A DNA stretch of 64,000 nt, taken from the NCBI GenBank assembly GCA_947629905.1, contig CANRFM010000003.1, positions 1 through 64,000 on the forward strand. Direction: 5' to 3'. Under the pieces are notes generated by a model, which saw only the letters and a list, made by a program, of their open reading frames with translations, ran no database searches and was not told the origin of the DNA. Within the stretch, counting starts at the first letter, position 1; the number at the start of each line of letters is the position of its first letter. The position numbers and the translations under genes are program-made. The DNA comes from an uncultured Clostridia bacterium. Its GTDB lineage: Bacteria > Bacillota > Clostridia > Oscillospirales > Ruminococcaceae. Shown here one piece after another: positions 4,115-39,511 of the stretch.

Positions 4115-4244
4115 CCGGAACAGGGTTCAAATATAATATAAATAGTCAGTTTACGCTGCTTTTGTTCATTGTAATTTGATATTGTTTAAGGTAAAATAAA
4201 ATATAAAGACATTGATCGTTCACAAAGTCAGAAGGGGGAATAGT

Positions 4245-7181
4245 ATGAAAACGATCAGACAAAGGATCATAGGCACGATCTTATCCTGCGCAGTAGCGCT
4301 GACCGGCTTTGCGGGTGTATCTGCGCCGGTCGCAGCAGCACAGACGGAGTGGAAATTCGACCTCGGCGGCGGAGGGGCAGCATCCGGCTTCACGGGCGTG
4401 AGTGCTGCAGATGGCTACAACGCCTCAGCCGGGTACGGATTTTCGGATACTTCCGGTGTCAAGAATGTGGCTGCTTCCGGCGGCGGCTCGTGGAGCGATG
4501 CGGTGCAGTTCACGTCCGACAAGACGACGTTCAACGTTGACCTGCCCAAAGGGCTGTATCAGGTCTCCGTTGCGACCGGAGACACCAGCCGCACCAGCAT
4601 CAAAGCGGAAGGGATGCTCCAGCTCATCAACCTGACCGGGAACAATGCCTTTGACACGTTCCAGCTTCCTGTTACAGACGGGCAGCTCAATATTCAGGCA
4701 GTTGCCGGACGGGCGAACACGCCGTTTTCTATCAGTGCGGTAGAGATCACGCAGCTCAATACCACAGGCGAGACGAATCCTACGATCTGGCTCTGCGGGG
4801 ATTCTACAGTCGCCAATTATTACAATACAGCCGATACAGCACAGCATGGCTGGGGGCAGCTTCTTGGCGATTTTCTGGACGGCACGGCTGCGGAAGGCTA
4901 TCAGGTGCGCAACATGGCAGCAAGCGGTCAGTATGCCAAAGGTTTCGTGGACGGCGGACAGTTCGATGCGATCGAAGCCTACGGCAGGACAGGGGACTAC
5001 TATGTGATCGCCATTGGTATCAATGATACGAACTATTCCAACGCAGACGAGTACACGGCTGTTGTGACAGACATGGTACAGCGTGCGAAGAAAAAGGGCA
5101 TGGAAGTCGTTCTTGTCAAGCAGCAGGGAAGAAGAAGCGACCTGAACCGCAGTCCGCTGCTTGGCGGCAGATGGTTCGGCGGACAGCTGGACAGCATTGG
5201 TGCAGCGGAGAATGTGAGAGTCATCGACCTGTTCACACCGTGGCAGGAATTTGGGCTTTCCGTAGGCTTTGACGGCATGGCGGAATACTATGCAGCCGAT
5301 GATGACCTGCACCAGAGCAAAGCAGGCTCGACCAAACTTGCGGAGATCATGGCAGGGCTGCTGTTCAGCGGCAGTGCAGCTGGTCCGCAGGGGGATGTAC
5401 TGGAGGGTGTGCCGGAGGTATTCATGCTCCGGAATGGAAATTCCAACCAGTATCTTTCCTTGGATGCTGCGCCGGGCACGAATGTGTCACAGCAAGCGGC
5501 CCCCGGCATTGACAGCAGATTGGCACTCTGGAAAGCTGTTCCGGCAGAGGACAATTACTATCACCTCGTCAGTGCAGCCGATGAGAGCAAGTATCTCGAC
5601 ATTTACCAAGCCAAAGCGGTCAACGGTACCAATGTCGGTATCTGGTCGGACAGCGGTTCGGATGCACAGCTGTTCCGTTTCCTGAAACAGGACGACGGCA
5701 GCTATATCATCACCACAAAGGTCTCGGACGGCAAGAGTGCCGTCGAGGTCAAGGATGCTTCTCTTGACAGCGGTGCAAATGTGCAGGAATGGGAGAGAAA
5801 CGGACACGCCTGTCAGACGTGGTTCATTGACAATGCGGTGACTTCAGCCGGGGCAGTGACAGCGGGCGACCTGAATGCAGACGGCGTGGTGGATGTGTTC
5901 GATGAAGCGCTGATGAAGCGGGCGCTTTCGGAGGAGGGCATTACCCACGCACAGCGCAGGGTCTCCGACCTCAACGGCGATGCGAAAGTCAATACGGACG
6001 ATCTGACAGTGATGCGGGATTTTGTCCTTGGCAAGGGGAAGATCACCTCTGTGGCAGAGGGCAAGGATGTTTACTATGCCATTGATGCAGCGTACAGCAA
6101 GGGCTTGACAGAAAATGTCAATACAGGCTTTACGTCTGATGCGTATCTGAATCTGGACAACAACGATCTCAGCTTTGTGGAATTTACAGTCAACGTACCG
6201 AAAGACGGCAATTATCTGTGCACGTTCCACATTGCCAACGGCAGTGCCAGCAACCGGCTGATGAAGATCGAGGTCAATGCCAATACGGACTACTGGATGC
6301 AGGATTTCCTCTCAACAGAGGCATGGACAACATGGCAGGAACGTGCCATTGTGCTGCCGCTGATCGCCGGTGCGAACCTCATTCGTCTGACTTCCGCCAC
6401 GGCGGAGGGCGGTCCGAATATGGACTACCTGCGCACGGAATGGACGGACGAGCCGATCGCTGAAACCTATCAGCCGCCGACAGAACCGGAACCCGCACCG
6501 CAGGGGACGACCATTTACATTGCAGGCGATTCCACCGTGCAGTCCTATCGTGCCAGCTATGCACCGCAGCAGGGCTGGGGCTATTATCTGGGGGACTATT
6601 TCACGGAGGGTGTGACGGTTTCCAACCATGCCATTGCGGGGCGCAGTTCCAAGAGCTTCTATGACAATGGCAGATTGCAGACCATTCTCGATGCGATCCA
6701 GCCGGGGGATTATCTCCTTGTGCAGTTCGCCATCAACGATTCCGCTGCCTCAAATGCGGAGCGCTATGCCCCGGTCTGCGGCAATGCAGATAACCCGGCA
6801 GAGGGTTCCTATGAATGGTACATGACGCAGTACATCAAGGGCGCACTGGACAAGGGCGCAACACCCATTCTGGTGACAACGGTCATCGGCTTGAAAGCAT
6901 ACTCCAACGGCAAATTTGTCAACAGCTACACCAACTACTGCGATGCGTGCAAGAGCCTTGCGGCGAAGTATAAGATCCCCTGCATTGACCTGAACACACT
7001 GATGGTTGATCACTATAACAGTATCGGCTACGATGCTGCCTATCAGTATCATCTGTGCGGCGCTGTCGAGGGTTCGACCGATATGACGCACTTCACGGAG
7101 AAAGGCGCCAATGCCGTGGCAGGACTGGTGGCAGGTGCGATCAAGGAACTGGGACTTCCGGTTTCTGCGAATGTCAAATAA
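4245..7181 (+). CDS. Secreted dockerin-containing carbohydrate esterase with two SGNH (CE12/rhamnogalacturonan acetylesterase-like) domains
   Basis: Signal peptide; N-terminal WKFDLGGG module; SGNH-1 (GDSTVANYYN ... DDLHQSKAG); ricin-type CBM13-like segment (SNQYLSLDAAPGTNVSQQ); dockerin (GDLNADGVVDVFDEALMKRAL...SDLNGDAKVNTDDLTVMRDFVLGK); CBM35-like segment; SGNH-2 (GDSTVQSYRASYAPQQGWG ... DMTHFTEKG). Start placed at ATG 4245 after GAAGGGGG. Confidence 0.85.
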   Translation: MKTIRQRIIGTILSCAVALTGFAGVSAPVAAAQTEWKFDLGGGGAASGFTGVSAADGYNASAGYGFSDTSGVKNVAASGGGSWSDAVQFTSDKTTFNVDLPKGLYQVSVATGDTSRTSIKAEGMLQLINLTGNNAFDTFQLPVTDGQLNIQAVAGRANTPFSISAVEITQLNTTGETNPTIWLCGDSTVANYYNTADTAQHGWGQLLGDFLDGTAAEGYQVRNMAASGQYAKGFVDGGQFDAIEAYGRTGDYYVIAIGINDTNYSNADEYTAVVTDMVQRAKKKGMEVVLVKQQGRRSDLNRSPLLGGRWFGGQLDSIGAAENVRVIDLFTPWQEFGLSVGFDGMAEYYAADDDLHQSKAGSTKLAEIMAGLLFSGSAAGPQGDVLEGVPEVFMLRNGNSNQYLSLDAAPGTNVSQQAAPGIDSRLALWKAVPAEDNYYHLVSAADESKYLDIYQAKAVNGTNVGIWSDSGSDAQLFRFLKQDDGSYIITTKVSDGKSAVEVKDASLDSGANVQEWERNGHACQTWFIDNAVTSAGAVTAGDLNADGVVDVFDEALMKRALSEEGITHAQRRVSDLNGDAKVNTDDLTVMRDFVLGKGKITSVAEGKDVYYAIDAAYSKGLTENVNTGFTSDAYLNLDNNDLSFVEFTVNVPKDGNYLCTFHIANGSASNRLMKIEVNANTDYWMQDFLSTEAWTTWQERAIVLPLIAGANLIRLTSATAEGGPNMDYLRTEWTDEPIAETYQPPTEPEPAPQGTTIYIAGDSTVQSYRASYAPQQGWGYYLGDYFTEGVTVSNHAIAGRSSKSFYDNGRLQTILDAIQPGDYLLVQFAINDSAASNAERYAPVCGNADNPAEGSYEWYMTQYIKGALDKGATPILVTTVIGLKAYSNGKFVNSYTNYCDACKSLAAKYKIPCIDLNTLMVDHYNSIGYDAAYQYHLCGAVEGSTDMTHFTEKGANAVAGLVAGAIKELGLPVSANVK

Positions 7182-37038: not shown

Positions 37039-37075
37039 AAGGGCAGCACTGCACGATTTTGTGCAGTGTTGCCTT
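37039..37075. repeat. Hairpin repeat copy 1 (also terminator-like)
   Basis: AAGGGCAGCACTGCACGATTTTGTGCAGTGTTGCCTT; closely similar to 39473-39511. Confidence 0.7.
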
Positions 37076-37137
37076 TATTGTATGATTATTGTCATGGATT
37101 GTCAATCAATTTTGTCAGAACGTCCAATTGGAAAGCC

Positions 37138-37166
37138 TTGACAAGGAACAGATTTTCGGGTATAAT
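37138..37166 (+). promoter_or_regulatory. Promoter of the C1-like dockerin gene (TTGACA-17-TATAAT)
   Basis: TTGACA 37138-37143; TATAAT 37161-37166. Confidence 0.75.
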
Positions 37167-37226
37167 GAAAATACGGGAAAAAACTCAATTTTTCGTGATG
37201 ATCCTGTAATAACATGGAGGATGGGT

Positions 37227-39464
37227 ATGAAACACAATAAACAGACAGCGCTCCTGCTCAGTATGCTGCTAACAGTTTCCTGCGGCAGCGGACTTTCAGC
37301 CGGGGCTGTGACTGGATCACATTTATATCCCGCACCGGAAGATGCGTACAGATATGTTTCAGACGATGCAGCAGAAGAATCTCTTCCGGAACGGTTTGAT
37401 TTGCGGGAAAAAGGACTTGTCTCCCCGGTACGGGAACAGGGAAATTATCAGACAGGCTGGGCATTTGCTGCTGTGCAGAGCGTGGAAAGCAGCCTGATCT
37501 CCCGGAATGCGAAAATCGACCTCTCTGAATGGCAGCTTGCCTGCTCCATGTACAGTCATACGTTCGGGTATCCGGCTGACAAGGATGCTTTTTTGCAGGA
37601 GGAGGCTTCGGATAAGCAGATCATGGGACTGCTTGCCGGATGCATCGGACCTGTCAGGGAAGAAGATGCGCTCTACGGAGATATGGACTATGCAGATAAA
37701 TCGCTGACCATGGAAGAAATACAGGCACAGGCAGCGTATCATGTGACAGATGTGTACACCTATCCGTATTTGCAGGAAGCGGAGAATTTTTCTGCACAGT
37801 GTGAAGCCGTCAAGCAGGCAGTCTATGCGGGAGAGGCTGTATCTTTCAGCTATGTCCATGCAGAGAATTGCTACAATGAGGCATTTCATTCCTATTATTA
37901 TGACCCGGATCAGGCAGAGACAGGCGCCATAACCGGGCATTCAGCGTGTATTGTGGGCTGGGATGATACATTCCCGGCAGAGCAGTTCAATACCGACCCC
38001 GGCAGAGACGGGGCTTGGCTTGTCAAGAACAGCTGGGGTACCAATTGGGGGGAATATGGATTTTTCTGGATCTCCTATGCGGATGATACAGTCAATTCCC
38101 TGCTTTCCTTTGATGCTGTCCCCGCTGATGATTCTATGCTGTACCAGCATGACGATTTTGGCTGCTTTGGCTCTTTCTCGTCAAATCCTTCCGGCGATGA
38201 GGCGGCATGGATCGCCAATATGTTTACCGCCGGGCAGGATATGTGGGTGACATCTGCCATGCTCTGCTGCATGGAAGCCGATGATGTATGCGAGATCACG
38301 GTTTACAAGGGCTGTGAAGAAGGCATACCGCTGTCCGGAGAGGCTTCTGCTGTCACAAGTACCATTCTCTCCCGGACAGGGTATCAGACGATCCCGCTTG
38401 CAGAGCCTGTGTTCGTGAAAGCAGGGGAGCGTTTTTCTGTTACGGTACGGCTTTCCGGAAATAAGGGATGGCATATCCCCTGCGAATATGCGACTCATAC
38501 GGAACGCACCGACCCGGATGGAACGATCAAAGTCACGGACAGTACTTTTTCCATTGAAATGCTCAGCCGGCAGTTTCAGGCTGGTGAAAGCTTTTTCAGC
38601 AGCGATGGGATACAGTGGCAGGATATGGCAGATCTGACACCGGAGGTGGTTTCCTATACTGCCGGAGAGGACAACAGCATCCGCTACGAGAATACAACGA
38701 TGTATGGAAATATTTGCCTGAAAGCCGTTACCCATGCTGCCGGGGCTGTCACCTTTTCTGAAAACAGTGCCTTTCTGCCTGCCGGTGCGGAGATCGCCCT
38801 TTCCTGTGAGGAAGACCTGCCGATCTATTATTCTGTCAATAATGGGGCATATCAGCTCTATGAAGCGCCCATTCCCTTTTCTGAGGAAATGACCGTTTAT
38901 GCCTACCCGGAGGGAATGGACAATACTGTCAGCATCCGTCATTATCAGGAGCAGAAGGCAGAAATTTCCGGCATTCTGTGTGCAGAAGATGGATTTTGCT
39001 GGTATGCTGACCCGACTTCCGAACCGAATACGTTCCACTACTACACAGAAAAGGGCGAGCGCAGTATTGGCATCATGCCGGTTTCGACCGGAACAGTCAT
39101 GTACGAAGATCAGGTGCTTCCTCCCGGAAAGCTGACGGATATTTCTGTTCCGGGCGGAAAGACAACGCTTACTTTCACAGTCACAGAAGAGGGCATCGGC
39201 ACTTCCGAATATAATCTGATCATAGAGGAACTGAATGACACTGAGCAGACTTCCGGGCTGCTTGGTGATGTAGATCTGAACGGAACGATAGACACCTCAG
39301 ATGCATCACAGATCTTGCAGTATATTGCCCAGAGTTTGTTTGGTGATACCCCGGACTTTGCTGATTCAGAATGGTTGGCACGGGCAGATTATGATGAGGA
39401 TCAGGATGTAGATACAAGTGATGTCAGCGAAATTCTTGAATATATTGCTTCAAATCTGTTATAA
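37227..39464 (+). CDS. Secreted dockerin protein with papain-like (C1) fold lacking the catalytic Cys
   Basis: Signal peptide; LPERFDLREKGLVSPVREQGNYQTGWAFAAVQSVESSL, ITGHSACIVGWDD, WLVKNSWGTNWGEYGFFWISY; C-terminal dockerin GDVDLNGTIDTSDASQILQYIAQ...ADYDEDQDVDTSDVSEILEYIASNLL. Confidence 0.85.
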   Translation: MKHNKQTALLLSMLLTVSCGSGLSAGAVTGSHLYPAPEDAYRYVSDDAAEESLPERFDLREKGLVSPVREQGNYQTGWAFAAVQSVESSLISRNAKIDLSEWQLACSMYSHTFGYPADKDAFLQEEASDKQIMGLLAGCIGPVREEDALYGDMDYADKSLTMEEIQAQAAYHVTDVYTYPYLQEAENFSAQCEAVKQAVYAGEAVSFSYVHAENCYNEAFHSYYYDPDQAETGAITGHSACIVGWDDTFPAEQFNTDPGRDGAWLVKNSWGTNWGEYGFFWISYADDTVNSLLSFDAVPADDSMLYQHDDFGCFGSFSSNPSGDEAAWIANMFTAGQDMWVTSAMLCCMEADDVCEITVYKGCEEGIPLSGEASAVTSTILSRTGYQTIPLAEPVFVKAGERFSVTVRLSGNKGWHIPCEYATHTERTDPDGTIKVTDSTFSIEMLSRQFQAGESFFSSDGIQWQDMADLTPEVVSYTAGEDNSIRYENTTMYGNICLKAVTHAAGAVTFSENSAFLPAGAEIALSCEEDLPIYYSVNNGAYQLYEAPIPFSEEMTVYAYPEGMDNTVSIRHYQEQKAEISGILCAEDGFCWYADPTSEPNTFHYYTEKGERSIGIMPVSTGTVMYEDQVLPPGKLTDISVPGGKTTLTFTVTEEGIGTSEYNLIIEELNDTEQTSGLLGDVDLNGTIDTSDASQILQYIAQSLFGDTPDFADSEWLARADYDEDQDVDTSDVSEILEYIASNLL

Positions 39465-39472
39465 TGTCACTG

Positions 39473-39511
39473 CAAGGCAACACGGCACAATTTTAGTGCG
39501 GTGTTGCCTTG
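39473..39511. repeat. Hairpin repeat copy 2 (also terminator-like)
   Basis: CAAGGCAACACGGCACAATTTTAGTGCGGTGTTGCCTTG. Confidence 0.7.

Follow-up and report, generated by a model that had tools for sequence, protein, structure and literature searches.

A dockerin-bearing papain-fold protein without the catalytic cysteine: a predicted pseudoprotease from a family with recurrent nucleophile loss

The stretch of DNA that we analyzed (64,000 nucleotides from an uncultured Ruminococcaceae bacterium; hereafter the window) encodes a dockerin-bearing papain-fold protein that has glycine in the position of the catalytic cysteine. We think it probable that this protein is a secreted, cellulosome-docked pseudoprotease that is retained for binding rather than cutting. 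This reading is supported by the absence of the nucleophile, purifying selection on the gene, the fold, a conserved promoter, the dockerins and cohesins of the genome, and repeated loss of the nucleophile within the family.

In the mechanism that we propose, the papain domain would fold normally and keep its cleft but would not cleave, in vitro or elsewhere, for want of a nucleophile. Through its dockerin, the secreted protein would plug into a cohesin on a scaffoldin made by the bacterium itself, and the papain and lectin-like domains would form a non-catalytic module that binds a peptide, a protein, or a glycoprotein, presumably using the cleft, and keeps this ligand on the cell surface or the fiber-bound complex. 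The loss of catalysis would be old, held by selection, and a recurring outcome in one clade of the family. A preliminary description of this DNA had suggested a non-catalytic binding module, inhibitor, or decoy, roles that are, for now, an inference.

Domain organization and the nucleophile position

The gene and its features are as follows.
37138–37166, plus strand: consensus sigma-70-type promoter (TTGACA-17-TATAAT, 12/12 matches), with the start codon ~60 bp downstream
37227–39464, plus strand: gene for a papain-fold protein with a dockerin and no catalytic Cys, predicted to be secreted (P0001; 745 aa ORF; homologue L009)
37227–37310, plus strand: predicted signal peptide, about residues 1 to 28, by pattern only (KHNK, hydrophobic core, SAGAV)
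37383–38084, plus strand: Peptidase_C1 (papain) domain, residues 53 to 286 (PF00112, 69.7 bits against a cutoff of 20.7, E 5e-19)
37437–37439, plus strand: oxyanion-hole Gln71 (93-sequence alignment)
37455–37457, plus strand: Gly77 (GGC) in the nucleophile position (sequence, alignment, and L009)
37938–37940, plus strand: His238, in the catalytic-His position (alignment)
38028–38030, plus strand: Asn268, in the catalytic-Asn position (KNSWG; alignment)
38139–38729, plus strand: Lectin_like domain of the Cwp84 type, residues 305 to 501 (Pfam PF18560, 88.2 bits, E 8e-25)
38730–39236, plus strand: beta-rich linker, residues 502 to 670 (strands predicted in the model)
39261–39446, plus strand: type-I-like dockerin (Dockerin_1), residues 679 to 740 (PF00404, 25.6 bits against a cutoff of 22.9)
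39474–39510, plus strand: terminator-like hairpin 3′ of the gene (predicted fold –27 kcal/mol)

All three domain matches (Peptidase_C1, Lectin_like, and Dockerin_1) exceed the curated Pfam cutoffs, with Lectin_like the strongest, and the linker region of one relative matches CHB_HEX_C_1 (Pfam). The Pfam search of the window protein gave no match to an NlpC/P60 module, a serpin domain, or PF04122 cell-wall-binding repeats, in whose place the dockerin stands; the NCBIfam search gave no match, and an Rfam scan of the whole window returned nothing. The promoter matches the consensus at 12/12 positions, compared with a mean of 3.6 promoter-like sites scoring at least 9/12 when the region was shuffled, and its hexamers and spacing are the same upstream of the homologue L009. 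A hairpin similar to the 3′ one lies upstream of the gene (37039–37075); the two are related in sequence (GGCA(A/G)CAC...GTGTTGCCTT) and flank the gene unit, a possible duplicated terminator or insertion trace.

Residue 77 is a glycine within VREQGNYQTGWAFA, where C1 (papain) proteases carry the catalytic cysteine. The preliminary description had read this residue from a GGC codon and had listed the Gln, His, and Asn as retained; both statements hold, with the same Gly codon found in L009 and with Gln71, His238, and Asn268 aligned to the catalytic partners. It had also remarked on a tyrosine in place of the upstream disulfide cysteine. The tyrosine is present, but it is ordinary: none of the relatives read has a cysteine there, and intact ones, the active paralogues among them, carry Tyr or some other residue (SYGMCW, PYGTCW, and others in the alignment). 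The papain fold itself is indicated by PF00112 and by Foldseek matches to cathepsins (probability 1.00). Judged by sequence, the protein is a papain-fold homologue and not an active C1A peptidase: it has the His, Asn, and oxyanion Gln but not the catalytic Cys. As a homologue of enzymes that has lost an essential catalytic residue while under purifying selection, it qualifies, by sequence, as a pseudoenzyme.

Residual or new catalysis without the cysteine is extremely improbable. Gln, His, and Asn are kept and some relatives read Ser-His-Asp, but glycine lacks a side chain that could serve as the nucleophile, and the oxyanion Gln has become Lys in two of the Ser relatives and Glu in a third, which also has Arg for His. 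The listed cysteine positions include none within residues 20 to 105 of the window protein, so no neighboring thiol is available as a substitute. Cys241, three residues after the His, was ruled out as a substitute nucleophile, being present in the intact relatives L010 and L024 too. Nor is the cysteine content an unusual marker: the protein's 15 Cys are many for this family without being extreme.

The closest structural comparison is with Cwp84 of Clostridioides difficile, which was the best PDB sequence match (E 3e-23). With an AlphaFold model of the window protein (19 sequences, mean pLDDT 83; low confidence in the signal-peptide segment), the top Foldseek match was Cwp84 C116A, over both domains (TM 0.78 by target length). 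The two proteins share a papain-family domain followed directly by the same Lectin_like domain (PF18560), with the same fold across both (PDB 4ci7, 4d59; PMC4089489). They differ in that Cwp84, an active S-layer protease, has Cys116 and carries both a propeptide and cell-wall-binding repeats, whereas the window protein has Gly77, a dockerin in place of the repeats, and apparently no comparable propeptide (its predicted signal peptide is separated from residue 53 by only ~25 residues, modeled with low confidence, and this segment is likewise short in the intact paralogue L002). Replacement of Cwp84 Cys116 by Ala left SlpA uncleaved in a co-expression assay (PMC4089489), and loss of the thiol is therefore expected to abolish cleavage in the window protein. 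Given this inactive mutant, a nucleophile that is gone in two species, and purifying selection, the earlier label of predicted pseudo-protease is well supported. At the canonical papain Asn position, Cwp84 itself carries Ser (KSSWG, in the alignment with PDB 4ci7/4d59), so changes under Asn268 alone are no proof of inactivity. The "lectin-like" middle region of the preliminary description corresponds to the Cwp84-type Lectin_like domain, but "lectin" is here a name, and carbohydrate binding by this type is putative only (PMC4089489).

Selection and gene movement in comparison with a second species

A second species of the genus (genome G007) carries a homologue, L009, with 84% protein identity and the same glycine encoded by the same GGC codon. 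The genes are 86% identical as DNA, and the codons around the glycine differ silently. The same glycine in a different species amid silent changes is neither a read error nor chance. Sequencing error or gene decay, to which the draft state of both genome assemblies might point, is thus almost certainly wrong: L009 comes from an independent assembly, the ORF is full length, the promoter is conserved, and dN/dS is about 0.16 for the whole gene and 0.09 for its protease domain. The second species and dN/dS together refute it.

By the Nei-Gojobori method, the window gene and L009 have an overall dN/dS of 0.158; the protease domain stands at 0.093, the lectin-like domain at 0.127, and the dockerin at 0.33. 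An intact paralogue pair from the same two genomes (L002 and L040) gave 0.176 for the mature protein and 0.135 for the protease domain. Thus, constraint is as tight on the dead protease domain as on a live one. Around the dead site, the loops (residues 69 to 84 and 236 to 276) differ at 1/57 residues, compared with 27/191 elsewhere in the protease domain (Fisher p = 0.0075), although these stretches were chosen after the data had been seen and the same skew appears in some intact pairs. Conservation of the active-site loops could reflect folding alone.

These values bear on an alternative in which the lectin-like and beta domains bind carbohydrate or fiber and the papain domain only holds the fold. 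The papain and lectin-like domains of Cwp84 are packed tightly and have contacts in common (PMC4089489), Lectin_like is the strongest domain match of the window protein, and the organism is equipped with scaffoldins and dockerins for cellulosome-type fiber degradation. However, dN/dS is lowest in the papain domain rather than in the lectin-like one, the active-site loops are the most conserved stretch, and sugar binding by this lectin-like type is itself putative, so we regard passive support as plausible but on the unlikely side. Loop conservation could also be expected of a decoy that engages cystatin- or serpin-like inhibitors (from plant, host, or rival) and shields intact proteases or the cellulosome, and the cathepsin matches of the fold include an entry for a cathepsin–cystatin complex. 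The inhibitor partner of such a decoy is purely hypothetical, however, and a motif on the non-primed side of the cleft is altered: the Gly-Gly motif by which papain clefts hold substrate (EQGGN in most paralogues) is absent, and the window protein has EEASD. We therefore consider a decoy very unlikely. With the Gly-Gly motif lost, the old substrate-binding mode may be gone, and our preferred reading of a docked binding protein does not commit us to a decoy role toward those same substrates or inhibitors.

The dockerin (window 39237–39461) is the fastest-changing part of the protein, with 39% of its residues different from those of L009, compared with 11 to 15% in the preceding domains. The changes extend to putative cohesin-contact residues, as though one docking specificity had been exchanged for another, and the docking partner may differ between the two species.

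In the window, the gene is flanked by ppa and by a short S4-like gene that follows hup. Its neighbors, recognized by sequence as trpS, mazG-like, hup, ppa, and prs, are presumably housekeeping genes. Genetic linkage to a partner was rejected because the neighbors are of this housekeeping-like kind and are different in the second species. In G007, the gene lies directly after an esterase-dockerin gene, on the opposite strand, and the hup region ends in its own terminator-like sequence, without a pseudoprotease gene. The counterpart of that esterase gene in the window (4212–7181) is a long SGNH-esterase-like gene with its dockerin mid-protein instead of terminal. Homology of the unit between the window and G007 spans 37075–39404, beginning where the first hairpin ends (L038 7949–10278; L160). 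Synonymous divergence is 0.56 for the pseudoprotease gene, compared with 0.26 for nrdD, 0.33 for the esterase gene, and 0.30 for the intact paralogue. The different sites and the excess synonymous divergence indicate that the gene has moved and that the two copies may not be simple vertical orthologues, a hint that gene and promoter were transferred or relocated together. The shared glycine either predates the split of the two genomes or arrived with a transferred copy.

Recurrent loss of the nucleophile in the genus

The papain-lectin family was present in 38/38 genomes of the genus examined. The active-site cysteine is kept in 71 of the 82 gene copies that were read and is missing from the other 11, which come from nine genomes, each a separate species. 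Three of these copies have Gly (the window protein, L009, and L015, which also has Asp for Asn) and eight have Ser. The Asn-to-Asp change is frequent and occurs in the Ser copies L043, L044, L045, L046, L067, L070, and L071, most of which read D(S/C)RG for NSWG. The eighth Ser copy, L075 (106–2739, minus strand), is the most degenerate, with Arg for His, Cys for Asn, and Glu for Gln in a full-length ORF. A Ser-His-Asp triad is accompanied by Lys in the Gln position in L044 and L046, and the alignment shows it with the oxyanion Gln kept in the following loci.
L043 343–2469, minus strand: Ser-His-Asp triad with oxyanion Gln
L045 279–2429, minus strand: Ser-His-Asp triad with oxyanion Gln
L067 271–2487, minus strand: Ser-His-Asp triad with oxyanion Gln
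L070 259–2805, minus strand: Ser-His-Asp triad with oxyanion Gln
L071 105–2456, minus strand: Ser-His-Asp triad with oxyanion Gln
It is possible that these relatives have switched catalytic class or merely that they have decayed further.

In a tree of 81 rows from which the trait columns had been left out, all 11 copies without the cysteine fell within one clade of 26, compared with 0/55 of the other copies. A single origin for all dead copies was rejected (AU p = 0.0013); p was 0.010 with the window pair left out and 0.008 when the three Gly copies were made a single clade, groupings that were picked after a first tree. Since a single origin is rejected and the best tree requires three changes, we count about three losses or more. 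Outside the genus sample, 34/34 readable loci kept the cysteine, in a sample rather than a census (an order-wide search of 394 genomes and a scan of named genomes). The loss-prone clade tolerates change of the Gly two residues ahead of the nucleophile (YNTC, YRTC, and YATC in some intact members; YETS, YETG, and YQTG in dead copies), and the EQGGN motif that marks the other clades is largely gone from it. These two features may together be a precondition for loss of the nucleophile. Recurrence in one family clade, with intact paralogues alongside, is a pattern beyond the single protein of the preliminary description.

Every genome with a dead copy (9/9) also holds at least one intact copy; here, it is L002 (G000:C7:13373–15436), which aligns over residues 46 to 744 with 43% identity. 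L002 differs from the window protein in keeping the Cys (SYGMCWSF) and the EQGGN motif and in belonging to another clade of the family. Both carry a dockerin (identified by Pfam in the window protein and by alignment through the dockerin in L002). One might therefore picture the window protein as a regulator of its intact paralogue, much as SERA5 works alongside active SERA proteases; by competing for substrate or docking site, or by partnering the active enzyme, it would adjust proteolysis at the surface. Yet with the family in 38/38 genomes and intact copies common, co-occurrence says little; moreover, the dead and intact genes are not adjacent, and the dissimilar Gly-Gly motifs make shared substrates doubtful. 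We judge such regulation quite unlikely.

Cellulosomal setting and comparison with known systems

The genome gave 58 dockerin matches and five cohesins over the cutoff. Contig C6 (L161, G000:C6:24000–33000) holds a 1241-aa multi-cohesin ORF with long TPEP repeats, adjoined by ORFs of 569 and 321 aa with cohesin-like and dockerin-like parts. With a dockerin over the Pfam cutoff (PF00404) and cohesin scaffoldins in the same genome, the window protein is predicted to be a component of a cellulosome and likely docks onto a cohesin; the preliminary assignment as cellulosomal is thus on firm ground.

Dockerin-bearing peptidases are known in Ruminococcus flavefaciens, where "Peptidase-UNK-Doc" (ZP_06142181) binds the cell-surface cohesin ScaE (PMC5301203). 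This protein and "UNK-LRR-Cysteine proteinase-Doc" (ZP_06144185) are likewise peptidase-like, dockerin-borne, and cellulosomal, although both are listed as peptidases and were compared with the window protein by description only (PMC5301203). RflaF_05439 of R. flavefaciens is also cellulosomal and has a distantly papain-like cysteine-peptidase fold, and one of its repeats in strain 17 has Ser for Cys; it differs in belonging to the NlpC/P60 superfamily, with tandem modules and an X-dockerin rather than papain and Lectin_like domains (PMC3573020). By Pfam, the window protein is neither of the RflaF_05439 type (NlpC/P60 with X-dockerin) nor a cellulosomal serpin. The catalytic residues of "peptidase" modules in ruminococcal cellulosomes are worth checking before the modules are labeled as enzymes.

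Dockerin-borne proteases and papain pseudoproteases are each known, and we found no report of the combination, a cellulosomal papain-family pseudoprotease, in a full-text literature search whose reach excluded most subscription papers. The best-known papain-family pseudoproteases come from parasites, mites, and plants; in the present case, a bacterial genus has dropped the nucleophile repeatedly within one predicted secreted and scaffold-docked family and has retained the products under selection. A broader and rather doubtful view is that, in this genus of gut fiber degraders, at least three conversions of cellulosomal papain-lectin proteases have produced a docked, non-cutting class that tunes or shields proteolysis at the cellulosome, in parallel with SERA5, beside a possible papain-fold serine hydrolase with a Ser-His-Asp triad. 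Copies of one architecture with Gly, with Ser, and with an intact Cys provide a test set for the function of dead proteases.

The eukaryotic papain pseudoproteases resemble the window protein in having a papain fold, a lost catalytic Cys, and a non-enzymatic role that has been shown or proposed. To our knowledge, SERA5, the scabies mite proteins, and soybean P34 have neither a dockerin nor a Cwp84-type lectin-like domain. In P34, the residue in place of the catalytic Cys is Gly. P34 (PMC2292165) and the inactive cysteine proteases of the scabies mite (PMC5956821) are both papain-family pseudoproteases. SERA5, which has Ser in the nucleophile position, shows no protease activity but is active once Cys is introduced, so it can bind peptides, and it has an essential non-enzymatic role (PMC4671257). 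By analogy, SERA5 would be a fair model for the function of the window protein.
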